Shown here in pieces: positions 1-53,580 of a stretch of DNA of 64,000 nt (the first letter of the stretch is position 1; each line of letters starts with the position of its first letter). The DNA is from Rhodocyclus purpureus (GTDB lineage: Bacteria > Pseudomonadota > Gammaproteobacteria > Burkholderiales > Rhodocyclaceae). The position numbers and the translations under genes were made by a program. The stretch covers positions 29,715-93,714 of the forward strand of contig NZ_NHRX01000016.1 in assembly GCF_016653115.1 (NCBI RefSeq), written 5' to 3'. The notes under the pieces are model-generated. The model had not been told where the DNA came from and did no database searches. It saw only the letters and a program-made list of their open reading frames with translations.

Positions 1-283
1 ATCGTCATCGTCATCGCGAGCCCGCAGGGCGTGGCGATCCAGTGCGTAGGTCTCGCATCATGAAAAGCGCCAAGACGGAAGAACGAACTGGATTGCCACG
101 GCGCTGCGCGCCTCGCAATGACGGCAGTGCGAGGCGTGCGCGGAGAGGTGCCGAGATCGTCATCGTCATCGCGAGCCCGCAGGGCGTGGCGATCCAGTGC
201 GTAGGTCTCGCATCATGAAAAGCGCCAAGACGGAAGAACGAACTGGATTGCCACGGCGCTGCGCGCCTCGCAATGACGGCAGC
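1..283. repeat. Dispersed hairpin repeat, two direct copies
   Basis: Two direct copies with a period of 155 bases (starting at 1 and 156). Each has a left arm beginning CGTCATCGCGAGCCCGCAGG and a right arm ending CCTCGCAATGACGG that is an imperfect reverse complement of it, so each copy can fold into a long hairpin. The same arms recur at about 6956, 35150, 37695, 41875, 46130, 51445 and 53200. The first copy may start outside the window. Open frames across it are artefacts of the repeat. Confidence 0.9.
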
Positions 284-349
284 GGATGGGCGCGTTTCAT
301 GCGCCGGGGCGGCGCCGACCAGCGTGGGGCGCACGCTATACTCCGCGCG

Positions 350-5573: not shown

Positions 5574-6841
5574 AATTCTTCCCCGATGATGCGTTCGATG
5601 TCGGCCACGCGTATATGGACCTCCGCGCGCGACCTGATCTCGTCGAGCTTCGCCTGGCGGATCTGGCGCTGCGCGTCGAGCAGCGTCGCGAAGTCGAGCT
5701 TGCCGTTCTCGTAGCCGGCGAGCGCCGCGCGGAAAGTCAGCTCGGCTTGCGGCAGCAGGCTGTCGCGTACCAGGACCCCGGTTCGCTGCGCGGCGTCGAG
5801 CGCGGCGATGGTTTCGGCAAGCTCGCCGACGATCCGGTTGGCGGTCGCTTCCCGGCGCGAGCGCGCAGCGGCCAGCATCGCCTCGGCTTCGCGCTCCTGC
5901 GCGCGCCGCGAAGACTGCTGCAGCGGGATGTTCATCTCCAGCATCAGATCCCATTGCTTCAGCTCGTTCTGGAACTGGTTGGGGGCGACGCCGAGGGTGA
6001 AGTCGGGATAACGGTTCTTGTAAGCCAGCTCGCGGCTTTTCTCGGCGGCGTCGATGCGCGACGAATCGACCGCGAGCAAGGGGTTGCGCGCCCTGGCGCG
6101 TTCCTCGAGGCTGGCGTAGTCGAGTTGCGCGGGGGCAGGCAGCGCTCGCAGCCGTTCGGGCGACGCGAGCGGCGCTGTCGCCGGGCGACCAAGCAGCGCG
6201 TTTATGCGCGCGCTCAGCTGGCGCTGCTCGGTGTCGAGCGCGATCAGCTCGTTTCTCATCGTCGTCTGTTCGACCTGGGCGCGGATCACGTCCTGCTGGG
6301 CGGCGAGCCCCGACGCATAACGCAGTTGCGCGACACCCTCCAGGCGGACCAGCAGGTCGAGGATTTCGCGCGTCAGCCGTTCCCTGTGCGCGAGGTAGTA
6401 GCGCTGGGCATGGAGGGTCCTGATCTGCGCGGCGAGGTCGTTCCAGCTGGCCGCGGCCGTCGCGGTGGCGCCGTCGGCCTCACGCTGCGCAAGCTCGCGC
6501 TTGAGATCGCGCTTGCCCCACCAAGGGATGTCCTGCATCAACAGGTAACGCGTACTGCCGGCCCGGCCGGGCAGCAGGGTGGCGCTCTGCTCACCACCAC
6601 GGGTGACGTCCATCAGTTCGGTGCGCAGCCTGGGGTCGGACAGGGCGCCTGCGGCTTCGACGCGTTGCGCTGCAGCCGCCGCCTCGTGACGCGTGCCGGC
6701 GTAGTCAGGGTTGTTCTCGCGCGCCAGCGCGAGCAGGCTGTCGACGTCGCTTCCCGGCGCCATCTGCGCCTGGGCGCTCCCCCAGCAAAGACCGACCAGC
6801 GCAAAGAACAGTAGGCCGCGGGAACTCTTGGCAGGCTTCAT
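5570..6841 (-). CDS. cusC: Outer membrane efflux factor, CusC/TolC family
   Basis: Outer membrane channel component (423 residues) of the copper RND system. A signal peptide is visible (hydrophobic residues about 8-22, then SAQAQ). The body has the repeated Ala/Glu/Leu-rich helices of an outer membrane efflux protein domain and no lipobox, so it is closer to CzcC/TolC-like factors than to the lipidated E. coli CusC. ATG 6841 was chosen because it puts the signal peptide at the very N-terminus. First gene of the cusC-cusB-cusA operon, overlapping cusB by four bases. Its upstream region carries the motif GTTTCACGTTA (complement 6860-6870). The symbol is by context. Confidence 0.82.
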   Translation of the reverse strand: MKPAKSSRGLLFFALVGLCWGSAQAQMAPGSDVDSLLALARENNPDYAGTRHEAAAAAQRVEAAGALSDPRLRTELMDVTRGGEQSATLLPGRAGSTRYLLMQDIPWWGKRDLKRELAQREADGATATAAASWNDLAAQIRTLHAQRYYLAHRERLTREILDLLVRLEGVAQLRYASGLAAQQDVIRAQVEQTTMRNELIALDTEQRQLSARINALLGRPATAPLASPERLRALPAPAQLDYASLEERARARNPLLAVDSSRIDAAEKSRELAYKNRYPDFTLGVAPNQFQNELKQWDLMLEMNIPLQQSSRRAQEREAEAMLAAARSRREATANRIVGELAETIAALDAAQRTGVLVRDSLLPQAELTFRAALAGYENGKLDFATLLDAQRQIRQAKLDEIRSRAEVHIRVADIERIIGEEL

Positions 6842-6955
6842 TGGACTTTCCGTGATGGCTAACGTGAAACGTGGAACAATTTCGTGAAACATCGGCTGAA
6901 CTAATCTGCCGAAGCCGTCGGATCAACAGCCCGTCAGTTGGAAAGGCCGCGAAAA

Positions 6956-7200
6956 CAGAAGAACGAACTGGATTGCCACGGCGCTACGCGCCTCGCAATG
7001 ACGGCAGTGAAGCGAATCCGTCATCGCGAGCCTGCAGGGCGTGGCGATCCAGACAATGCGTCATCGCGAGCCCGCAGGGCGTGGCGATCCAGTTCGTGGG
7101 GCTTATATCCGGGCGCCCATGGATAGCCGGCAAGGGCGAGAAAACAGAAGAACGAACTGGATTACCACGGCGCTGCGCGCCTCGCAATGACGGCAGCGGA
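6956..7200. repeat. Dispersed hairpin repeat cluster between cusC and cusF
   Basis: Two right arms (near 6965-7003 and 7155-7193) and two left arms (near 7018-7052 and 7061-7095) of the dispersed palindromic family. They separate cusF from the cusCBA operon. The 461 bases between the two genes hold only this repeat material and a short flank (GCGCGTTTCATGC near 7205) that also borders other copies. No gene is seen here. Confidence 0.88.
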
Positions 7201-7302
7201 TGGGCGCGTTTCATGCTTCGGGCCTTCCTGCCCTCCCACATCCGTTGCCACGGGAACGCTTGTCACGGGAGGAGCGGCAGCCGCAAATGCGGGTGGATAA
7301 CG

Positions 7303-7650
7303 TCAGCGTAATTCGAGGCGGACGATGGTCATGGCGCCGTCGATGGTTTCGCTGGCGAAGCTGATCCGGCTGCTTTCAGTCACCTTGTCGAGCCAGGCGG
7401 CTTCCTTGACCTTGAAGCTCATCGTCATCGCCGGCATGCCGTTGGGCAGGGGACCGTGGGAGACGGTCAGCTTGCCGCCTGCCTTGTCGAGCTTCTTGAC
7501 CACGCCGTCGATCAGCGTGGACGGCGTACTGGCTTGTCCAGTTGACGCGTGCATGGCGCCCTGTCCGGCCTTACCTTCATGTGCGACGGCGCCCAGCGCG
7601 GGGGACAACAACAGCACGGCAACGAGGCCGGGTACGATCGAATTTTTCAT
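7303..7650 (-). CDS. cusF: Periplasmic copper/silver chaperone CusF-like
   Basis: A 115-residue secreted protein with a signal peptide (hydrophobic about 5-20, ending ALGAVAHE) and one CusF domain at about residues 45-113. CusF carries Cu(I)/Ag(I) to the CusCBA pump. The metal site is recognisable as [14 protein letters not shown], with the His and both Met ligands. The Trp that caps the metal in E. coli CusF is absent; a Met occupies that position (NGMPAMTM), whereas the CusF-like domain fused to CusB keeps the Trp. It is transcribed away from cusRS and separated from cusCBA by repeats, so it may have its own promoter near the palindrome at 7770-7787. Confidence 0.88.
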
Positions 7651-7769
7651 GGACTTTCTCCTGTTCGGGAATGGACAAGGCGGCAGTGACGTCCTTGACG
7701 CTGGTCGGCGTGGTGCACTGGCGACAGGCGCAGTCTGACGCGGCAGGCCGAACAGGAAGCTGTCCGCGA

Positions 7770-7787
7770 GATTACATTTCGGTAATC
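7770..7787. promoter_or_regulatory. Candidate copper-responsive operator (CusR/CopR box)
   Basis: A perfect inverted repeat, GATTAC and GTAATC around ATTTCG, between the divergent cusF and cusR genes. It resembles the operators of CopR/CusR-type copper response regulators, which contain TTAC and GTAA half-sites. Binding by the adjacent CusR is inferred from position and symmetry. Confidence 0.6.
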
Positions 7788-7856
7788 TTCGTCAGCGCGC
7801 AGGCTCTCCGGCAGAAAATTAGGGCGATGGCGAAGAGATTCGAGAAGGAGTGGCAG

Positions 7857-8534
7857 ATGAAAATACTGGTCGTCGAAGACGAGCCCAAGACCGGGGACTA
7901 CCTGCGCCAGGGGCTGGCAGAGGCAGGTTTCGTCGTCGACCTCGCCCGCAACGGATTGGATGGGCTGCACCTGGCACTCGGCGAAGCCTACGACCTCGCG
8001 ATTGTCGACGTGATGCTGCCGGGAATCGACGGCTGGCAGCTGTTGCAGGGAATCCGGCGCGCCGGCAAGGACATGCCGCTGCTCTTCCTCTCCGCGCGCG
8101 ACGCCGTCGAGGACCGGGTCAAGGGCCTCGAACTCGGCGCCGACGACTACCTCGTCAAGCCCTTCGCCTTCTCGGAACTGCTGGCCCGCGTGCGCACGCT
8201 ACTGCGGCGTGGCAGCAAGGCGAAGGAGCCCGAGCTCTTGCGCGCTGCCGACCTCGAACTCGACCTGATTCGTCGCCGCGTCAGCCGCAGTGGCAGGAAG
8301 ATCGACCTCACCGCCAAGGAATTTTCCTTGCTCGAACTGCTGTTGCGGCGACAGGGCGAGGTGCTTTCGCGCTCGCTGATCGCCTCGCAGGTCTGGGACA
8401 TGAACTTCGACAGCGACACCAACGTCATCGAGGTCGCCATCCGTCGCCTGCGCGCCAAGGTCGACGACGGCTTCGAGCCCAAGCTCATCCGCACCGTGCG
8501 CGGCATGGGCTACGTGCTGGAAGTCGCCACATGA
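7857..8534 (+). CDS. cusR: Heavy-metal response regulator CusR/CopR
   Basis: OmpR/PhoB-class response regulator of 225 residues. The receiver domain (about 1-115) has the acidic pair Glu7/Asp8, phospho-acceptor Asp51 in IVDVMLPG and Lys101 in YLVKPF. The winged-helix DNA-binding domain (about 125-222) ends in the usual [14 protein letters not shown] 7857 follows a GAAGGAG ribosome site. The next gene, the sensor kinase, overlaps by four bases, so the pair is co-translated. Adjacent copper efflux genes and the heavy-metal regulator subfamily point to control of the cus genes. Confidence 0.92.
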
Positions 8535-9934: not shown

Positions 9935-12665
9935 TGGCAGCGGCGATCCGCCGGCGCACGACCCATTTGCGCACCTCCTCCAGCACCAGCATCGCCAGCG
10001 CGAAGGGCAGGATGCACAGCCACACCGATGGCGGCGGTGGGGCGGTGGCGAAGAGCGCGTTGCCCCACGGCGTGTAGTCGATCAGCAGCAGCAAGATGAG
10101 TTCGAGGACGACCCCGCCGAGGATCAGCGGGTTGCCGGAGATCCCGGTTTCGCGCAACGAGCGCAGCGAACTGCGGCAGAGGAAGACGTTCACGATCTGC
10201 AGCACGATGATCGTCGTGAGCGCGGCGCTGGTCGCCTGCCGGTAGAGGAGGCTGTCCGCCGCCGGCATCTCGCCCCAGCTCCAGCCGCCCTCAAGCAGGA
10301 CGAAGAAGAAGGCGGACATGGTCGCCGCGGCCTCGATCAGCCCGAGGAACAGGTAGGCGCGCCAGACAAGCTGCGCGTTGAACAGGCGCTCGTTCTGCGC
10401 GCGTGGCGGACGCCGCATCGCCTGCGGATCGGGCTTCTCGACGCCGAGCCCGAGCGCAGTCAGCGAATCGGTGCCCATGTCCACGGTCAGCGCCTGGATC
10501 GGGGTCAGCGCGATCGGCACGCGGAAGAGCGCGAAGGCGAGGTAGGGGACCAGTTCGGCGACATTGTGCACGAGGACGTAGGTGAGGAACTTGCGGATGT
10601 TGCCGAACACCGCGCGGCCCTCCTCGACGGCGGCGACGATCGACGCGAAGTTGTCGTCGAGCAGGACCATGTCGGCAGCCTCCTTGGCGACGTCGGTCCC
10701 CGAACGCCCCATGGCGATGCCGATGTGCGCGGCCTTCAGCGCCGGCGCATCGTTCACGCCGTCGCCGGTGACCGCGACGATCTGCTGCTTCCTGCGCAGC
10801 GCGACGACGATGCGCATCTTCTGGTCGGCGGCAAGCCGCGCGAAGACGAGCTCTTCCGAGTCGAGCGCGAGCTGCAGTTGCGTCGCCGACAGGTGGCGCA
10901 ACTGCTCGCCGGTGAGCACGCGCGGCTCGGGCGAGCGTACCAGCCCGATCTGGCGCGCGATCGCCAGTGCCGTCTGCGGATGGTCGCCGGTGACCATGAT
11001 CACGCGGATTCCCGCCTCCCGGCATTTCGCGATCGCCGCCGGAACCTCCGGGCGCGGCGGATCCTCGAGTCCCGCGAGACCGCAGAAGACCAGTTCCTCC
11101 TCGGCAGCCTCGGCCGTCAGCGGGATCTGCGCGCCGGCTTGAGCTTCGGCACCGCCCGCCTCCACCGCTCGCACCGGCAGCGTCCGCCAGGCGAAGGCGA
11201 TGACGCGCAAGCCCCTCGCCGCCATCTGCTCCTGCGCGCGCTGGATTTCGGCACGCGCCGCGGCGTCGAGCGGACGCACGACGCCGGCGTCGACTAATTG
11301 CCCGCACAGCGGCAGCACGCTTTCGGGGGCGCCCTTGCAGTAGAGCGTGCGCCCCGTCGCCGTCTCGACCAGCACCGACTGGCGCATGCGGTCGGTATCG
11401 AAGGGAAGCTCGTCGACACGCTCGGCGCCCTTCTCAGCCACCTCCAGCCTCGCCGCAAGCTCGACCAGCGCGATCTCCATCGGGTCGCCGAGCAGGACGG
11501 GCTTGCCGTCGGCCTTCGCTTCCTCCAGCGAATGGCAGAACGCGGCGGCGAGCAGCAGTTGCCGATTGTCTTCGACCAGGGTGCGCTCCTCGCCCAGCGC
11601 GGCGGCCGGGTGCAGCCTCAGCCCGAGCAGCAGTTCCTCGACGCGCATCCGGTTCTCGGTCAGCGTTCCGGTCTTGTCGGTGCAGATCACCGTTGCCGAG
11701 CCGAGCGTCTCGACGCAGGGCAGGTGGCGGATCAGGACCTGGCGCCTGGCCATGCGTTGCGACGCCAGCACCAGCGCCAGCGTCAGCGTCGGCAGCAGCC
11801 CCTCGGGGACCATCGCGACGATGATGCCGATCGAGAAGATCAGCGCCTGCCAGAAGGGGATCCCCAGCGTCTGCGCCAGCGCGAGAAAGACGATCCCGAT
11901 CAGCACGGCGAAGAAGGCGATGCGGCGGCTCAGGTGCGCGAGTTCGAGCCGCAGCGGCGAGACGGTGTCGCCGGCCGTCTGCGTCAGCTGCGCGATGCGC
12001 CCGAACTCGGTCTGCGCGCCGGTGGCGAAGACGAGCGCGCTGCCGCGTCCGGCAACGAGAGAGGTGCCGGCGAGCAGGAGGCAACGGCTGTTGATCCAGT
12101 GCTCCTCGCGCGAAGGCAGCGCGTCGGCGACCTTCGGTCTCGACTCGCCGGTGATGGTCGCCGTGTTGACGCGGATGCCGTGGGCTTCGAGCAGCCGGCA
12201 GTCGGCCGGGATGCTCTGCCCGGCCTCGACGTGGATGACGTCGCCGGGAACCAGTTGCTCGACCGGGAGCCGCACGACGTTGCCGTCGCGCAGCGCATTG
12301 ACCTCTTCGGGCAGCAGTTTCCTCAGCGAGGCCAGCGTCCGCTCGATGCGGTGCTCCTGCCAGAAGGAGAAGCTGCCGCTGACCAGGATGACGGCGACGA
12401 TGGCGACGCCGACCTTGGCCATCCCCTGTCCCGGATCGAACCATTCGGCGAAGAAGGCGAGCGCGGCCGCCACCCAAAGGATCACCGAGAAGAAGCCGAA
12501 GTACTCCTGCGCCAGACGCCAAGCGAGCGGCTCCCTGGCAACCGGCGACACCACATTGGCGCCGTGCTCGGCCAAGCGGCGTCCGGCTTCGGCGCTGGAA
12601 AGCCCGCTCGCGCTGCTGTGCACGCTGGCCAGCGCCTCGGCGACCGACATCTGGCGGATCTGCAT
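9903..12665 (-). CDS. P2-type cation-transporting ATPase
   Basis: A 920-residue P-type ATPase with the N-terminal cation-ATPase domain, M1-M2, the actuator loop (TITGES), M4 with VPEGLLPTLTLA, the phosphorylation motif DKTGTLT at about residue 330, the nucleotide domain, TGDGVNDAP at about 632 and six C-terminal helices. The M4 motif and following region resemble the P2 group (Ca2+, Na+/K+ type). There is no CPC motif or N-terminal metal domain, so it is not a CopA copper pump despite the neighbourhood. ATG at 12665 was preferred because GGGAGG lies just upstream. The transported ion cannot be read from the sequence. Its 3' end overlaps cusS tail to tail. Confidence 0.88.
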   Translation of the reverse strand: MQIRQMSVAEALASVHSSASGLSSAEAGRRLAEHGANVVSPVAREPLAWRLAQEYFGFFSVILWVAAALAFFAEWFDPGQGMAKVGVAIVAVILVSGSFSFWQEHRIERTLASLRKLLPEEVNALRDGNVVRLPVEQLVPGDVIHVEAGQSIPADCRLLEAHGIRVNTATITGESRPKVADALPSREEHWINSRCLLLAGTSLVAGRGSALVFATGAQTEFGRIAQLTQTAGDTVSPLRLELAHLSRRIAFFAVLIGIVFLALAQTLGIPFWQALIFSIGIIVAMVPEGLLPTLTLALVLASQRMARRQVLIRHLPCVETLGSATVICTDKTGTLTENRMRVEELLLGLRLHPAAALGEERTLVEDNRQLLLAAAFCHSLEEAKADGKPVLLGDPMEIALVELAARLEVAEKGAERVDELPFDTDRMRQSVLVETATGRTLYCKGAPESVLPLCGQLVDAGVVRPLDAAARAEIQRAQEQMAARGLRVIAFAWRTLPVRAVEAGGAEAQAGAQIPLTAEAAEEELVFCGLAGLEDPPRPEVPAAIAKCREAGIRVIMVTGDHPQTALAIARQIGLVRSPEPRVLTGEQLRHLSATQLQLALDSEELVFARLAADQKMRIVVALRRKQQIVAVTGDGVNDAPALKAAHIGIAMGRSGTDVAKEAADMVLLDDNFASIVAAVEEGRAVFGNIRKFLTYVLVHNVAELVPYLAFALFRVPIALTPIQALTVDMGTDSLTALGLGVEKPDPQAMRRPPRAQNERLFNAQLVWRAYLFLGLIEAAATMSAFFFVLLEGGWSWGEMPAADSLLYRQATSAALTTIIVLQIVNVFLCRSSLRSLRETGISGNPLILGGVVLELILLLLIDYTPWGNALFATAPPPPSVWLCILPFALAMLVLEEVRKWVVRRRIAAAISRESAARTQ

Positions 12666-19783: not shown

Positions 19784-20235
19784 GGGATCGCCTCCCGCCC
19801 GACAGTTTCGCGAGCTCTACGTCATAACTACATAACTATAGAAGCAACACGAAGTTTCCGCGCGTTTCATGGCCTGGGCGGCGAAGCTCGCCATGATTCT
19901 TATTGGCGCGTGACGCGACAGGCGCAGCAGTCGAAGTCACTCACAGATCCCGGCCGCAAGCTCGGCCAGGCTGTCGTGCAGCGATCTTGGCTTCGTTCCA
20001 CTCGCTTGCCGGCGAGCGTCAGCGCGATGGGGGGGGATGATGTGAAGGTCGTATCCTGCCACATCGGCCGGACGGGCGTAAGCAGGAGTCCGGGGGCCAC
20101 GCAGGACGGCGCGACCCGGTCACGGCGACGAGTCATGTTCGCCGTCGATTGTCGATTGCCGCGCGCGCGTGCATACTGCGGCGGGGAGATGGCGCAGCGC
20201 GTCCTCTCGGCAAGCTCCCGGCCGACGCCAGGACG
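19784..20235. other. 452 bases without a gene upstream of qNOR
   Basis: No convincing reading frame. The stretch at 19861-19899 (CGCGTTTCATGGCCTGGGCG, then GCTCGCCATGATT) matches one conserved flank of the dispersed repeat element without its hairpin core. An AT-rich stretch at about 19819-19850 contains a short direct repeat, TAGTTATG on the minus strand, likely near the qNOR promoter. I see no FNR-type box (TTGAT-N4-ATCAA). Confidence 0.4.
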
Positions 20236-35143: not shown

Positions 35144-35146
35144 ATA

Positions 35147-35540
35147 GAAGAACGAACTGGATTGCCACGGCGCTGCGCGCCTCGCAACGACGGGATGGCG
35201 ACGCGTCATCGCGAGCCCACAGGGCGTGGCGATCCAGTACGTAGGGCTCATCTCCGGGCGCCCATGGATGGCCGGCAAGGGCGAGGAAACAGAAGAACGA
35301 ACTGGATTGCCGCGGCGCTGCGCGCCTCGCAATGACGGGATGGCGACGCGTCATCGCGAGCCCGAAGGGCGTGGCGATCCAGTGCGTAGGGCTCGTATCC
35401 GGGCGCGCATGGATGGCCGGCAAGGGCGAGGAAACAGAACAACGAACTGGATTGCCACGGCGCTACGCGCCTCGCAATGACGGCAGCGGATGGGCGCGTT
35501 GCATGCCCGGGGGCGGCATAACTCGCCATGACTGGCAATT
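35147..35540. repeat. Dispersed hairpin repeat cluster after mfd
   Basis: Three right arms (near 35150, 35300 and 35450) alternate with two left arms (near 35205 and 35350), joined by a spacer containing GGGCGCCCATGGATGGCCGG. The right end (CAGCGGATGGGCGCGTTGCA and then AACTCGCCATGACTGG, 35484-35536) is the same flank seen at 51388 in inverse orientation. It begins directly after the mfd stop, so the 3' end of the mfd transcript would fold into it. Confidence 0.88.
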
Positions 35541-37694: not shown

Positions 37695-37880
37695 AATGCG
37701 TGGCGAACGATAGCGCGTCATCGCAAGCCCGCAGGGCGTGGCGATCCAGTGCGGGGGGCTGATATCGGGTCGGTCGTGGATAGCCGGAAAGAGCGAGGAA
37801 ACAGAAGAACGAACTGGATTGCCACGGCGCTACGCGCCTCGCAATGACGGCAGCGAATGGCTGCGTTTCATGCTCGGGGG
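37695..37880. repeat. Dispersed hairpin repeat after serB
   Basis: One left arm (near 37719-37750) and one right arm (near 37812-37850) with a short spacer, followed by the flank GCGTTTCATGCTCGGGGGTG (37863-37882). The remainder of the 310-base gap between serB and iscX holds a degenerate half arm and nothing else recognisable. It separates the convergent aroG-serB and isc transcripts, so the hairpin could act in transcript ending. Confidence 0.85.
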
Positions 37881-37953
37881 TGGTACGAATCTCCACGAGC
37901 GTCAGCGCGGCGTAAACCCGACTACACCGTCATTGCGTAGTAGCCCCCATTTC

Positions 37954-41824: not shown

Positions 41825-42098
41825 TAACGCGAAACTGCAAAAGATGAAGCGAGGGCACGCTCCCCGAACAACAGCCCGTCAGCGCGAGCCCGCAGGGCGT
41901 GGCGATCCAGACAACGCGTCATCGCGAGCCCGTAGGGCGTGGCGATCCAGTACGTAGGTCTCGCATCGGGTCGCCCGAGTTGGCGAGGCCGCGAAACTGG
42001 AAGAACACACTGGATTGCCACGGCGCTGCGCGCCTCGCAATGACGCCGAGGCTGAATTTCATGCTGGGGGATGGCGCAAGCTGCCGTGACCGTCACGA
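41825..42098 (-). repeat. Full composite repeat element between iscS and iscU
   Basis: Read on the minus strand: flank with TGGCGC and CATGAAATTC (complement of about 42050-42098), a right-arm/left-arm hairpin core with an extra left arm (41875-42045), then a tail containing GGGGAGCG and TTTTGCAGTTTCGCGTTA, ending at 41825. The same two ends border the copy at 51388-51612. The tail points to iscU, 88 bases away. It interrupts the isc operon. Confidence 0.75.
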
Positions 42099-46074: not shown

Positions 46075-46875
46075 TAACGTGAAACTGTGAAGGGATGAGG
46101 CAAAAGCGCTGCCCCGAAGCAGTAGCAGGTCATCGCGGGCCCGCAGCGCGTGGCGATCCAGACAACGCGTCATCGCGAGCCCGTAGGACGTGGAGATCCA
46201 GTGCGTAGGCCTCGAATCGGGTCGCCCGAGTTGGCGACGCCGCGAAACTGGAAGAACGAACTGGATTGCCACGGCGCTACGCGCCTCGCAATGACGGCAG
46301 TGAAGCGAATCCGTCATCGCGAGCCCGCAGGGCGTGGCGATCCAGTACGTAGGTCTCGCATCGGGTCGCCCGAGTTGGCGAGGCTGCGAAACTGGAAGAA
46401 CGAACTGGATTGCCACGGCGCTACGCCCCTCGCAATGACGGCAGTGAAGCGAATCCGTCATCGCGAGCCCGCAGGGCGTGGCGATCCAGTACGTAGGTCT
46501 CGCATCGGGTCGCCCGAGTTGGCGACGCCGCGAAACTGGAAGAACGAACTGGATTGCCACGGCGCTACGCCCCTCGCAATGACGGCAGTGAAGCGAATCC
46601 GTCATCGCGAGCCCGCAGGGCGTGGCGATCCAGTACGTAGGTCTCGCATCGGGTCGCCCGAGTTGGCGACGCCGCGAAACTGGAAGAACGAACTGGATTG
46701 CCACGGCGCTGCGCGCCTCGCAATGACGGCAGTGAAGCGAATCCGTCATCGCGAGCCCGCAGGGCGTGGCGATCCAGTACGTAGGTCTCGCATCGGGTCG
46801 CCCGAGTTGGCGACGCCGCGAAACTGGAAGAACGAACTGGATTGCCACGGCGCTGCGCGCCTCGCAATGACGGCA
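46075..46875 (-). repeat. Tandem array of the dispersed hairpin repeat
   Basis: The 1005 bases between cysE and trmJ contain no real gene. From about 46156 there are five tandem units of exactly 144 bases (boundaries at 46300, 46444, 46588 and 46732). Units 2-5 are nearly identical; unit 1 differs at several positions. Each unit is one left arm, a spacer with TCGGGTCGCCCGAGTTGGCG, and one right arm. The left end (46075-46130) is the element tail with GGGGCAGCG and GTTTCACGTTA pointing toward cysE. Because 144 is divisible by 3, long false reading frames occur on both strands. Confidence 0.93.
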
Positions 46876-50070: not shown

Positions 50071-51354
50071 ATGAACACTTTCACGATCGTCTTTCTCGCC
50101 GCGCTGCTGGCGACCACCGCCGTCCGGCTGTGGCTCGCCAGGCGACAGATCGCGCACGTGCTCGCGCATCGCGACGCGCCACCGGCGCAGTTCGCCGGGC
50201 GCATCGACCTCGCCGCGCACCGCAAGGCGGCCGACTACACGATCACGCGCACGCGCTTCGGCATCGCCGCCCTCGGCGTCGAAACCGCGCTGCTCTTGCT
50301 GTTCACGCTCGGTGGCGGCATCGAGGCCTTGCTCGACTTCTGGCACGGACGGCTCGCGCCAGCTGCCAGCACGGAACTGGCAACGGGGAGCGAACTGTGG
50401 TCAGGCGTCGCGCTGATCGTCAGCGTCTTCCTGATCTCGGCCATCGTCGACCTGCCCATGGCCTGGTGGCGGCAGTTCGTGATCGAGGAACGCTTCGGCT
50501 TCAACCGCATGACGCAGGGTCTCTTCTTCAGCGACCTCGCCAAGCAGGCGGCGATCGGTGCGCTGCTCGGCATCCCGACGATTGCCGCCGCGCTGTGGCT
50601 GATGGAACGGATGGGCGAGGCTTGGTGGCTTTGGGTGTGGACCTTCTGGTGCGCCTTGAACCTGCTGCTGCTGTTCATCTTCCCGACCTGGATCGCGCCG
50701 CTGTTCAACAAGTTCACGCCGCTCGCCGACGACGCGCTGAAGGCACGCATCGAGGCGCTGCTCGAACGCTGCGGCTTCGCGGCCAGCGGTTTCTTCGTCA
50801 TGGACGGCTCCCGCCGCTCCGCCCATGGCAACGCCTACTTCACCGGCTTCGGGCGCAACAAGCGCATCGTCTTCTTCGACACGCTGCTCTCACGGCTGCA
50901 GCCGCAGGAAGTGGAGGCCGTGCTCGCGCACGAACTCGGCCACTTCCGCCTGCGCCATGTGCTGAAACGTATCATGCTGATGTTCGTGCTCGCACTCGCC
51001 TTCCTTGCGTTGCTCGGGCTGCTCGCGCAGTCGCCCTGGTTCTACGCGGGACTCGGCGTCAGCGAGGCGGGCGACGCGCAGGCGCTGCTGCTCTTCTTCC
51101 TTGCGGCGCCGGTATTCGCCTTCCCGCTGACGCCCATGATGAGCCTGCTCTCGCGCACGCAGGAGTACGAAGCCGACGCCTACGCGGCAGCGAACGCCGC
51201 CGCCACCGACCTCGTCAGCGCGCTGGTCAAGCTCTACGAGGACAACGCCTCGACGCTGACGCCGGACCCGCTGCACTCGCTCTTCTACGACTCGCACCCG
51301 CCGGCCGCCCTGCGCGTCGCCAACCTGCAAAAACTCGCTGCCGGGGCCGGATGA
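50071..51354 (+). CDS. M48 family membrane metallopeptidase (Ste24-like)
   Basis: An integral membrane zinc protease of 427 residues, M48A (CAAX prenyl protease 1-like). Several helices precede the catalytic motif [10 protein letters not shown], with the third ligand Glu in [28 protein letters not shown] is the usual family segment before the zinc site. Such enzymes are thought to do membrane protein quality control. ATG 50071 was chosen; the open frame upstream lacks a ribosome site. Its stop lies 33 bases before the composite repeat element. Confidence 0.9.
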
Positions 51355-51387
51355 ACGCGGCCCCTCGGACCCGCAGCACCCGCCCCA

Positions 51388-51612
51388 ACGATCATGGCGA
51401 GTCGTGCCACCCCTGAGCATGAAACGCGGCCCTTCGCTTCAATGCCGTCATTGCGAGGCGCGTAGCGCCGTGGCAATCCAGTTCGTTCTTCTGTCTTTGG
51501 GCCCTTTCCGATGCGAGACTTACGTACTGGATCGCCACGCCCTGCGGGCTCGCGATGACGGGCTGCTGCTCAGGGCAGCGTCTTTGCCTCGTTCTTTCGC
51601 AGTTTCACGTTG
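51388..51612 (+). repeat. Complete single copy of the composite repeat element
   Basis: Reference copy with both ends. Left flank 51388-51436 (AACGATCATGGCGAGTCGTG, then CCCTGAGCATGAAACGC), hairpin core 51445-51562 (right-arm type first, then left-arm type, in the orientation opposite to 46156-46875), and right tail 51563-51612 (a small GCTGC/GCAGC stem, then TTTCGCAGTTTCACGTTG). The tail ends 27 bases before the rsgA start codon. The element fills the M48-rsgA gap almost completely. Confidence 0.8.
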
Positions 51613-51638
51613 ACGCCACCGGGGGAAACATCCTGAAC

Positions 51639-52502
51639 ATGCTTGACGCCGAAGTCATCGCCGCCCATGGGCGCCAGTACCGGGTGGCGCTCGCCGACGG
51701 AAGGACCCTGCTCGCCTTCCCGCGCGGCAAGAAGAGCGAGGTCGCCTGCGGTGATCGCGTCCAGCTCGCCCTGAGCGGCGACGGCCAGGCGGTGATCGAG
51801 TCGGTGGCGCCGCGCCATTCGCTGCTCTACCGCTCGAACGAGTTCCGCAAGAAGCTCGTCGCCGCCAACGTCACGCAGATCGTCTTCGTCGTCGCCGTCG
51901 AGCCGGGATTCTCCGACGAACTGCTGACGCGCTGCCTGATCGCCGCCGAAGATCAGGACCTGTCGGTGCTGATCGTGCTCAACAAGTGCGACCTCGCCGC
52001 GGGCGTACCGAATGCGCTGGCGGCGCTGGCCCCATTCGTGAAGCTCGGCTACCCCCTGCTGCAGCTCTCGGCGCGCGACCACGCCGAAGACCTGCGCCCC
52101 CACCTCGAAGGCCAGTTGAGCGTCCTCGTCGGCCAGTCGGGGATGGGCAAGTCGACCCTGATCAACGCGCTGGTTCCGGGCGCCGAGGCGGCAACGCGCG
52201 AGATCTCGACCGCGCTCGACTCGGGCAAGCACACGACGACGCACGCGACGCTCTACCGCTTCGACGCCGGATCGGCGCTGATCGACTCGCCGGGATTGCA
52301 GGAATTCGGCCTGCACCACCTCGACCTGACGACGATCGAGCACGCCTTCGTCGAATTCCGGCCGTTCATCGGCCAGTGCCGCTTCCGCAACTGCCGCCAC
52401 GAGAAGGAGCCCGACTGCGCGATCCGCGCCGCGGTCGCCGCCGGCGAGATCGACCCGCGCCGCTACGAAGTCTTCCGCACCCTGCGCGCGCAGGCCGGGT
52501 GA
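51639..52502 (+). CDS. rsgA: Small ribosomal subunit biogenesis GTPase RsgA
   Basis: Circularly permuted GTPase (287 residues) that checks late 30S maturation. N-terminal OB fold (about 1-65), then the G motifs in permuted order: NKCDL (G4), GQSGMGKSTLIN (G1), DSPGLQEFGL (G3). The C-terminal zinc-binding region has CRFRNCRHEKEPDC. ATG 51639 is the only reasonable start and lies just after the composite repeat, which may therefore supply its promoter or leader. Confidence 0.95.
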   Translation: MLDAEVIAAHGRQYRVALADGRTLLAFPRGKKSEVACGDRVQLALSGDGQAVIESVAPRHSLLYRSNEFRKKLVAANVTQIVFVVAVEPGFSDELLTRCLIAAEDQDLSVLIVLNKCDLAAGVPNALAALAPFVKLGYPLLQLSARDHAEDLRPHLEGQLSVLVGQSGMGKSTLINALVPGAEAATREISTALDSGKHTTTHATLYRFDAGSALIDSPGLQEFGLHHLDLTTIEHAFVEFRPFIGQCRFRNCRHEKEPDCAIRAAVAAGEIDPRRYEVFRTLRAQAG

Positions 52503-53147: not shown

Positions 53148-53580
53148 CTTGGCCAACGACCATGGCGAGTCGTGCCCCCCCTGAGCATGAAACGCAGCCA
53201 CTCGCTACCGTCATTGCGAGGCGCGTAGCGCCGTGGCAATCCAGTTCGTTCTTCCAGTTTCGCGGCCTCGCCAACTCCGGCGACCCTATGCGAGACCTAC
53301 GTACTGGATCGCCACGCCCTGCGGGCTCGCGATGACGGATTCGCTTCACTGCCGTCATTGCGAGGCGCGCAGCGCCGTGGCAATCCAGTTCGTTCTTCCA
53401 GTTTCGCGGCCTCGCCAACTCGGGCGACCCGATGCGAGACCTACGTACTGGATCGCCACGCCCGTCGGGCTCGCGATGACGGTTACGGTCTCAGCCCCTC
53501 TCCATGCAGTCCCGGCACTGCCGTCATTGCGAGGCGCGTAGCGCCGTGGCAATCCAGTTCGTTCTTCCGTCTTCTAGCCC
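53148..53580 (+). repeat. Dispersed hairpin repeat cluster after the antitoxin remnant
   Basis: Left flank at 53148-53195 (AACGACCATGGCGAGTCGTG, CCCTGAGCATGAAACGC), nearly identical to 51388-51436, then three right-arm-type sequences (near 53207, 53354, 53520) alternating with two left-arm types (near 53305, 53450). The spacing of the first two units is about 145 bases. The right tail with GTTTCACGTTA is missing. The 551 bases between the toxin remnant and the Crp/Fnr gene hold nothing else. Confidence 0.88.

Follow-up and report, generated by a model that had tools for sequence, protein, structure and literature searches.

The element examined here lies at positions 51,388-51,612 of a 64,000-nucleotide window from Rhodocyclus purpureus (the whole stretch of DNA that was analyzed, contig C16:29715-93714 of a 3.62-Mb genome in 69 contigs), and its closest described counterparts are the insertion sequences (ISs) of the IS110 family, such as IS621 and ISCro4, which are guided by a bridge RNA or seekRNA, and the repetitive extragenic palindromic (REP) sequences with a CGTC tag, including those of Halothiobacillus neapolitanus. 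An IS621 donor of 22 bp works with bridge RNA in trans, and IS621 inserts in REPs (PMC11208160); ISEc11 likewise works when its non-coding RNA is provided in trans (PMC11187229); and in a 2006 survey IS110 was the most represented family among REP-associated ISs (PMC1525189). The CGTC REPs, a superfamily with an 8-9 bp stem and a 4-5 nt loop, occur in several phyla, mostly as head-to-head dimers and rarely in clusters, and apparently without a dedicated transposase, as a 2013 survey concludes; further, the CGTC-1 dimers of H. neapolitanus are enclosed in 41-bp palindromes, and dRS3 was equated with the CGTC-1 REPs of Neisseria (PMC3733652). The dRS3 repeat can serve as a phage integration site (PMC9778887), and Coxiella QMITE2 is a REP-carrying miniature inverted-repeat transposable element (MITE) linked to IS1111, an IS110 relative (PMC5896051).

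The composite at 51,388-51,612 unites two known kinds of element, namely REP dimers and IS110, in a combination that we did not find described. We consider it quite probable that this composite and its copies are non-autonomous, MITE-like relatives of IS110 elements that carry a REP dimer as cargo and depend for their movement on a recombinase and bridge RNA acting in trans. The ends of the composite are related to those of IS110 elements in other genera and, as with IS110 elements, no target duplication is seen and some copies sit within a palindromic repeat; unlike them, the composite has no transposase gene and holds a REP core, and of the non-coding region that IS110 relatives carry upstream of the gene it has nothing past the first 40 bp. 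With the CGTC-1 repeats of H. neapolitanus it shares the CGTC tag, the CCA tail, head-to-head heterodimers, and an outer inverted repeat, but this outer repeat is an interrupted, asymmetric, IS110-related end pair, the arms measure 33-35 bp, and large tandem clusters, reported as rare for CGTC REPs, are frequent (PMC3733652). Whereas QMITE2 is a target of IS1111 and bears 7-11 nt direct repeats (PMC5896051), the composite has IS110-related ends of its own, and a direct repeat was not found. A literature search, judged for most papers from the listing and with subscription papers and ISfinder outside its scope, retrieved no IS110-derived MITE, miniature, or other non-autonomous element, and none appears in the available text of PMC11578231, PMC2680597, PMC3718332, PMC9769881, PMC3189936, PMC5896051, PMC10969869, or PMC12859917.

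Anatomy of the composite and its family

In agreement with the preliminary description of this DNA, the composite consists of a left flank, two related inverted arms, and a right tail that ends in GTTTCACGTTG. Its parts are as follows:

51386..51388, + strand: presumed target bases CAA, immediately preceding the left end, with CTRA as the consensus (from the sequence and a profile of 32 non-palindromic left ends)
51389..51446, + strand: left end (L), whose first ~40 bp align with an IS110-family left end; contains the inner repeat TGAAAC
51447..51481, + strand: arm a of the core, a CGTC-tagged REP, GTCATTGCGAG...GTGGCAATCCAG
51482..51526, + strand: inter-arm spacer (from the sequence)
51527..51559, - strand: arm b of the core, an inverse CGTC-tagged REP, GTCATCGCGAG...GTGGCGATCCAG
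51560..51613, + strand: right end R1, ...CGCAGTTTCACG followed by TTGA; its GTTTCA can pair with TGAAAC of L

The boundaries of the element are sharp on both sides, with CTRAC followed by GATCATGGCGAG... on the left and ...GTTTCACG followed by TTAA on the right. The information profile rises at position -5 on the left (CTRAC followed by GATCATGG; n=32 copies outside the palindrome described below), and on the right it drops to background past CACG followed by TTAA (n=21), which bears out the fixed ends claimed earlier. The profile excludes the tandem copies in contigs C2 and C19 as well as three matches in C66, of which one is coding and two are truncated, and its right-end part also excludes C18:58229, C48:94591, and C22:13548. 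The two ends are asymmetric and share only the exact inner repeat TGAAAC, so that the symmetrical terminal inverted repeats of a classical DDE MITE are absent. The arms, of 35 bp (a) and 33 bp (b), read CGTC-ATTGCGAG...GTGGCAAT-CCAG and CGTC-ATCGCGAG...GTGGCGAT-CCAG, and face each other as CGTCATTGCGAG...CCAG and CGTCATCGCGAG...CCAG; they thus have the terminal CGTC, the CCA tail, and the head-to-head dimer arrangement of CGTC REPs. Each arm folds into a 5-bp outer stem, mismatches, an inner stem of 4-6 bp, and a 3-nt loop.

The whole element (51386-51613) folds with its ends paired, a pairing to which the inner inverted repeat contributes (z -3.45; opposite strand, z -2.95; DNA parameters). 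Strong folding of both strands would suit an immobile structured RNA or terminator unit with a regulatory role, which we nevertheless regard as highly improbable: the element has no match in two congeners and is missing from the orthologous intervals compared there, it occurs inside another repeat at a fixed join, and, at Rfam gathering thresholds, the window yielded a single tRNA elsewhere and no other match.

With 51,388-51,612 as the query, 219 matches were obtained in the R. purpureus genome. The fetched DNA (512,436 bases) contains 728 arms, compared with 6 in one mononucleotide-shuffled copy, a count that is not a genome-wide density because the loci had been fetched for matching. A regular expression recovered 64 left ends from this DNA (three of them the C66 matches, one coding and two truncated), 43 with a right end beyond the core; searches of the genome with the separate ends listed 40 left-end matches (best 40 of 94 candidates scored) and 43 right-end matches (best 40 of 74 candidates scored). 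The order of the parts is near-fixed, as the claimed polarity implies: among 67 left-end matches, the next arm is arm a in 59, a C-type arm in 1, a G-type arm in 1, and absent in 6; and among 58 right-end matches, a b-type arm comes next in 46, a T-typed arm in the same direction in 5, an arm in the other direction in 1, and no arm in 6. At the loci newly found by the end searches, a REP arm lay within ~250 bp in 8/8 left-end and 12/12 right-end loci examined, compared with a window background in which 11.5% of positions lie that near one of its 39 arms; the flanks therefore accompany the core more often than chance predicts, the comparison on which the composite had been made to depend.

The core was also said to multiply, and it ranges from one arm (C8:52881 and C34:37341) up to 67 arms in a row (C60), with tandem-core periods of 144, 145, 155, 192, and others. 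Complete copies with one to four arms measure 163-441 bp from GATC to CACG and consist only of ends, arms, and spacers, with no transposase gene. Further, there is a second right-end type, R2, with a doubled TTTCACG motif. Whole units stand in tandem at C19:32983-33745 and C2:16094-17070, where R and L are joined via a single TAAC-like spacer, and these R-L junctions, like one in genome G101, look like circle junctions.

A search of 41 genomes with the composite gave matches in its own genome and G008 alone, and at the eight G008 loci examined the arms are present and the composite's ends are absent. Such arms, together with arrays in R. purpureus that lack L or R, would fit a reverse order of nesting, in which a coreless IS110-type miniature came first and CGTC REPs were inserted later, spreading alone and using the ends as a landing site; coreless or lone L ends (window 19861; C22:13994; and a truncated L joined to R at C66:117438) would fit it as well. 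We think this order unlikely. Lone ends are few, since the 6/67 left-end matches without an arm are counted within 160 bp and about half of these appear spurious by eye, and the near-fixed order of a side and b side is what would be expected if the core had entered once and the whole unit had then spread.

Two long REP arrays were seen in the R. purpureus genome, namely L077:6328-10652 (C60:7327-11651), with 67 arms, and L046:3373-6163 (C13), with 40 arms. These have a 37-bp sub-period (a-a), whereas other arrays have one of 40 bp (b-b), and the C60 and C13 arrays are candidates for strain-variable loci.

Relation of the ends to IS110-family elements

When a 62-bp left-end query was compared with 297 family genomes, drawn evenly from a larger group, 8 of them matched, namely R. 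purpureus itself and seven others. In genome G260, the L end begins 256 bp ahead of a 407-aa open reading frame, whose product scores as an IS110 transposase (NF033542, E 9.3e-87; PF01548, 9.6e-30; PF02371, 5.8e-21) and matches the transposases of solved structures from ISCro4 (E 6.3e-7) and IS621 (E 1.2e-6). This complete element of 1556 bp terminates in CTCTTTCACGCTAA, 79 bp from the start of the stop codon, and its right end matches the composite R in TTTCACGCTAA; the relation of the ends extends over ~40 bp on the left and 11 bp on the right. In genome G147, three left ends were seen, all of them ~125 bases from a contig end, and one contig opens in the 3' part of a transposase gene and runs on to CTCTTTCACGTTAA; G179 is similar, with one left end and with CTCTTTCACGTTAA past the 3' end of its transposase gene. 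In both genomes the composite R motif TTTCACGTTAA stands behind the IS110 transposase gene, and the contig-end positions suggest a collapsed multicopy element.

An IS110 element on a Comamonas thiooxydans plasmid, found via the protein, has a transposase 63% identical, measures 1612 bp, and runs from CTAACTGTCATG to TTCCACATTAA; its ends are more diverged from the composite's than are those of G260. The first 144 bp of this Comamonas element recur at 94.5% identity on a Pseudomonas plasmid, after a different flank and also starting at CTAAC, and in a Variovorax relative inspected in the same way composite-type ends were not seen. The Comamonas element (L208:1199-2810; NZ_AP025194.1 22351-23962) is missing from the gene table of its plasmid.

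Twelve L ends, one of them our typed consensus for R. purpureus, align over ~40 bp, with TCAT invariant and with the GCG and C-rich blocks near-invariant. Moreover, an inverted repeat behind L and before R persists while its sequence changes, being TGAAAGAG(A) in three ISs of the family, TGGAAGACAC in Comamonas, and TGAAAC in the R. purpureus composites and in G183. We are confident that the ends of the composite are IS110-type ends, since both match those of an autonomous IS110 element. The MITE-like character that the preliminary description had suggested is supported and becomes more precise, in that the ends are related to those of IS110-family ISs of other genera.

Similar ends also enclose other cores. 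In G133, L is followed by a CCCTGAGCCTGTCGAAGG-type palindrome and then TTTGTTTCACGTTAA; in G183, L is followed by a CGTCATTCCGG...GCCGGAATCCAG dimer, which is another CGTC type, with GATGTTTCACAAAA at the contig end; in G101, the R-L junction is followed by a CCCTCCCCTTGAAGGGG repeat; and G233 has an L end and no clear right end. The shell formed by the end pair therefore seems to outlast its core.

Guide-like motifs occur in the non-coding region that precedes the transposase gene. In G260, this region repeats an 8-mer of the element's own right end (CACGCTAA; reached by 20/2000 shuffles) and 9 bases of its own left junction (CGCTTAACG; 27/2000), and in the Comamonas element it repeats a 9-mer of the right end (CCACATTAA; 2/2000), while swapping the right-end motifs of the two elements left 6 matching bases (all shuffles being mononucleotide). 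Further, CTAAC[GT]TG[AC]CCCG occurs at position 91-97 in six of seven loci, among them three copies of a single G147 element and the two relatives from Comamonas and Pseudomonas; it is missed in G260, which has CTTAAC at that position, the same as in its flank. The order within the region is a target-like motif followed by a donor-like one. In the IS621 bridge RNA, too, the target-like part precedes the donor-like part. These matches are suggestive, though not proof, of a bridge RNA encoded in the non-coding region. Both regular expressions for non-coding motifs were devised for this analysis, and one for the motif of the family gave 0 matches in 512 kb of R. purpureus DNA.

Target sites, proposed mobilization, and partner genes

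The copies outside palindromes are preceded by a CTRA(C) motif (32 copies), and others lie within a palindrome, GTCGGGTTACGCTNCGCNAACCCGAC, which occurs uninterrupted 19 times in the R. purpureus genome (≤2 mismatches), never reversed, and not at all in two congeners. The left half of this palindrome precedes 17/64 left ends, and both halves meet the element at the same join in 9/41 pairs. This join reads GCGCYAA, then CGATC...CACGTTAA, then CCCGAC, that is, an intact palindrome plus the element, with no extra bases. A weak difference was seen between the two settings, in that a C stands at the first target position in 7/20 palindromic and 3/32 other copies (2x2 test, p 0.033; counts taken by eye from the profile listing with a looser palindrome pattern).

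Target duplications, sought at the suggestion of the preliminary description, were not found. The left and right target 4-mers of 33 non-tandem pairs gave 91 matches against 91.4 expected (p 0.62), and inclusion of eight tandem units from C2 and C19 (41 pairs) gave p 0.14; the 4-mers are uncorrelated, and therefore nothing indicates a target duplication, in contrast to a classical DDE MITE. The test used 41 of the 43 pairs, with C18:58229 and C48:94591 excluded because the R picked there looked wrong. A defined target motif without target duplication is what an IS110-derived MITE should have. Among the candidates considered, a 4-bp duplication of TAAC, prompted by TAAC on both sides of the element, was rejected on the uncorrelated 4-mers; it is also contradicted by position -5, which is mostly C where the right counterpart is mostly T, and by the CAAC left flanks, 0/5 of which have CAAC on the right.

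The left end of the composite found nothing better than E 0.37 in two congeners, the best right-end score there was E 0.011 (G002) and involved query bases 62-97, outside the right end, and the orthologous intervals compared in G001 and G002 are without the element. The composite had no match in plasmid and phage DNA, and two scans for the exact L-end pattern in a wider collection of genome contigs, which possibly does not include R. purpureus, gave 0 and 0. The right flank of the copy at 46075, TTAA(A)AGTTGAT, is common to R. purpureus and both congeners. At the composite site itself (51330-51680), the congeners (L139, L141) have the same two flanking genes with a gene-sized stretch in place of the composite, and by eye this looks like the loss of a small gene from R. 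purpureus.

How such an element would move can be outlined from these features. With an IS110 recombinase and its bridge RNA provided in trans, the two ends would be joined via the shared TAA into a circle, with the expected junction CACGTTAACGATCATGG; the circle would insert 3' of a CTRA(C) target (candidate target GTCGGGTTACGCTGCGCTAACCCGAC) with no target bases duplicated, at times inside the palindrome, between GTCGGGTTACGCTGCGCTAA and CCCGAC; and the REP core would then expand into tandem arrays, with unequal recombination or slippage as the probable mechanism. A partner IS110 would be expected to carry the left end CTAACGATCATGG. The composite is likely a non-autonomous relative moved in trans, and the REP core is likely a locally multiplying cargo.

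Several observations weigh against this IS110-based account. Transposase genes with matching ends, another item raised in the preliminary description, do appear in IS110 elements of other genera, but neither the G260 protein nor NF033542 detected an IS110 transposase in the R. purpureus genome or two congeners, and no autonomous IS110 element, with a DEDD transposase and a bridge-RNA region, was found in R. purpureus; the composites therefore look orphaned, their partner having perhaps been lost, residing in another strain, or missing from the 69-contig assembly. A base-exact empty site, likewise sought, was not found in the congeners, because their intergenic DNA is too diverged. In other genera the L end is matched modestly (E 1e-7 to 9e-4), the match of the right end is only 11 bp long, and the IS110 transposase loci of G133 and G183, as well as those in G147 and G179 that are more distant, showed no such end pair on examination. 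In G133, the inner repeat is not complementary (4 bases). The solo L ends fold no more strongly than shuffles (z -1.29 to +0.54), and the L-end consensus fold, in which covariation of a hairpin was sought, yields 3 pairs only. Finally, the Comamonas left-flank guide match of 6 bases is no better than chance (1252/2000 shuffles), and the exact target-guide matches of G147 and G179 extend over 5-6 bases (reached by 855, 181, 167, and 100 of 2000 shuffles).

Three REP-associated tyrosine transposase (RAYT) genes, in contigs C38, C49, and C55, are present in the R. purpureus genome, where each lies within or next to other repeats (GGGGTCAGGTCTCG, GGGGACGTTATACT, and GTGGGAGGGCCG). They raise the alternative of an element like a REPIN (REP doublet forming a hairpin), in which the REP dimer is mobile via RAYT, an HUH enzyme resembling those of IS200/IS605, and the ends ride along. 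The lack of target duplication and the fixed 5' motif would also suit an IS200/IS605-type reaction, and REPINs and bacterial interspersed mosaic elements (BIMEs) with RAYT resemble the composite in their paired inverted REPs, high copy number, and tandem arrays. Unlike these, the composite has a fixed flank and tail and an a-b polarity, and none of the three RAYT genes is directly flanked by a complete copy; moreover, related ends are found around other cores and on IS110 elements that lack these REPs, and in the available text of the 2013 survey no CGTC repeat flanks a tyrosine transposase gene (PMC3733652). We regard RAYT-driven movement as quite unlikely, even though one b arm with an R2-like end lies directly upstream of the C49 gene. 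IS200/IS605-type (HUH) mobilization was rejected in view of the IS110 elements with related ends.

The three RAYT genes lie in three different repeat settings within this one genome. The C49 locus (L074:1676-18918; RAYT gene at 7195-8040) has 24 repeats of the GGGGTCAGGTCTC type, several of which are joined to a spacer and b arms, and the piece directly upstream of the gene is one such, with its b arm and R2-like end between inverted repeats. Of the RAYTs at C55 (L048:5594-6298) and C38 (L052:3102-3551), one follows GGGGACGTTATACT and one lies among GTGGGAGGGCCGTGAGGCCCGAAT repeats.

Further copies in the window and implications

Within the window, the other copies named in the preliminary description were recovered, and several were added. 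The inverse copy claimed at 41825-42098 has its right end at 41825, while its left end was found in degenerate form (15.8 bits, E 0.003), and it is therefore a full but decayed copy. The left-flank recurrences given at 53148 and, inversely, at 35484-35536 were located by the profile search at 53149-53208 and 35483-35540, the coreless one at 19861-19899 returned weakly as 19861-19902 (19.3 bits, E 2.4e-4), and the right tail reported at 46075-46130 does begin at 46075. Not on that earlier list were L 37850-37907, R2 6832-6967, the L remnants 279-314 and 7193-7222, and the tandem cores 46129-46871, 35157-35481, and 53210-53557. The copies are as follows:

41825..42095, - strand: complete decayed composite, with R1, two b arms (41878-41950), an a arm (42010-42044), and a degenerate L (42050-42095)
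46075..46871, - strand: composite with R1 (46075-46128) and an 11-arm tandem core of period 144; no L found
53149..53557, + strand: composite with L (53149-53208) and a 5-arm tandem core; no R found
35146..35540, - strand: composite with L (35483-35540) and a 5-arm tandem core; no R found
37712..37907, - strand: composite with L (37850-37907) following a left palindrome half (GTCGGGTTTACGCCGCGCTGAC); no R found
6832..7222, - strand: composite whose right end is of the second type, R2 (6832-6967); it has 4 arms and an L remnant (7193-7222)
1..314, - strand: tandem core that extends beyond the start of the window; L remnant at 279-314
19861..19902, - strand: lone L-like sequence without a core (nhmmer; no arm within 160 bp)

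A further palindromic module, of the GGAATAGACGTATTCC type, was seen elsewhere in the genome (L094:1557-1633; L059, ~10323-10434; and L077, from 3049), and by eye it can take the place of the usual right end after a left end or a b arm.

The IS110-like ends around REPs hint at how such repeats travel within genomes. If mobilization in trans were confirmed, (i) a mover would be named for CGTC REPs, (ii) the composites would be natural non-autonomous substrates of a bridge RNA, offering ends that are naturally short and a large sample of targets, and (iii) the nested palindromes in bacterial intergenic DNA would be explained. More tentatively, and on balance doubtfully, miniature IS110 elements may be a general RNA-guided vehicle for palindromic repeats, in which the shell is kept, the core is exchanged between genera, and the guide steers copies into palindromes. 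If this were true, repeats would themselves build nested repeats, and the CGTC REPs would gain the mover that they were said to lack.
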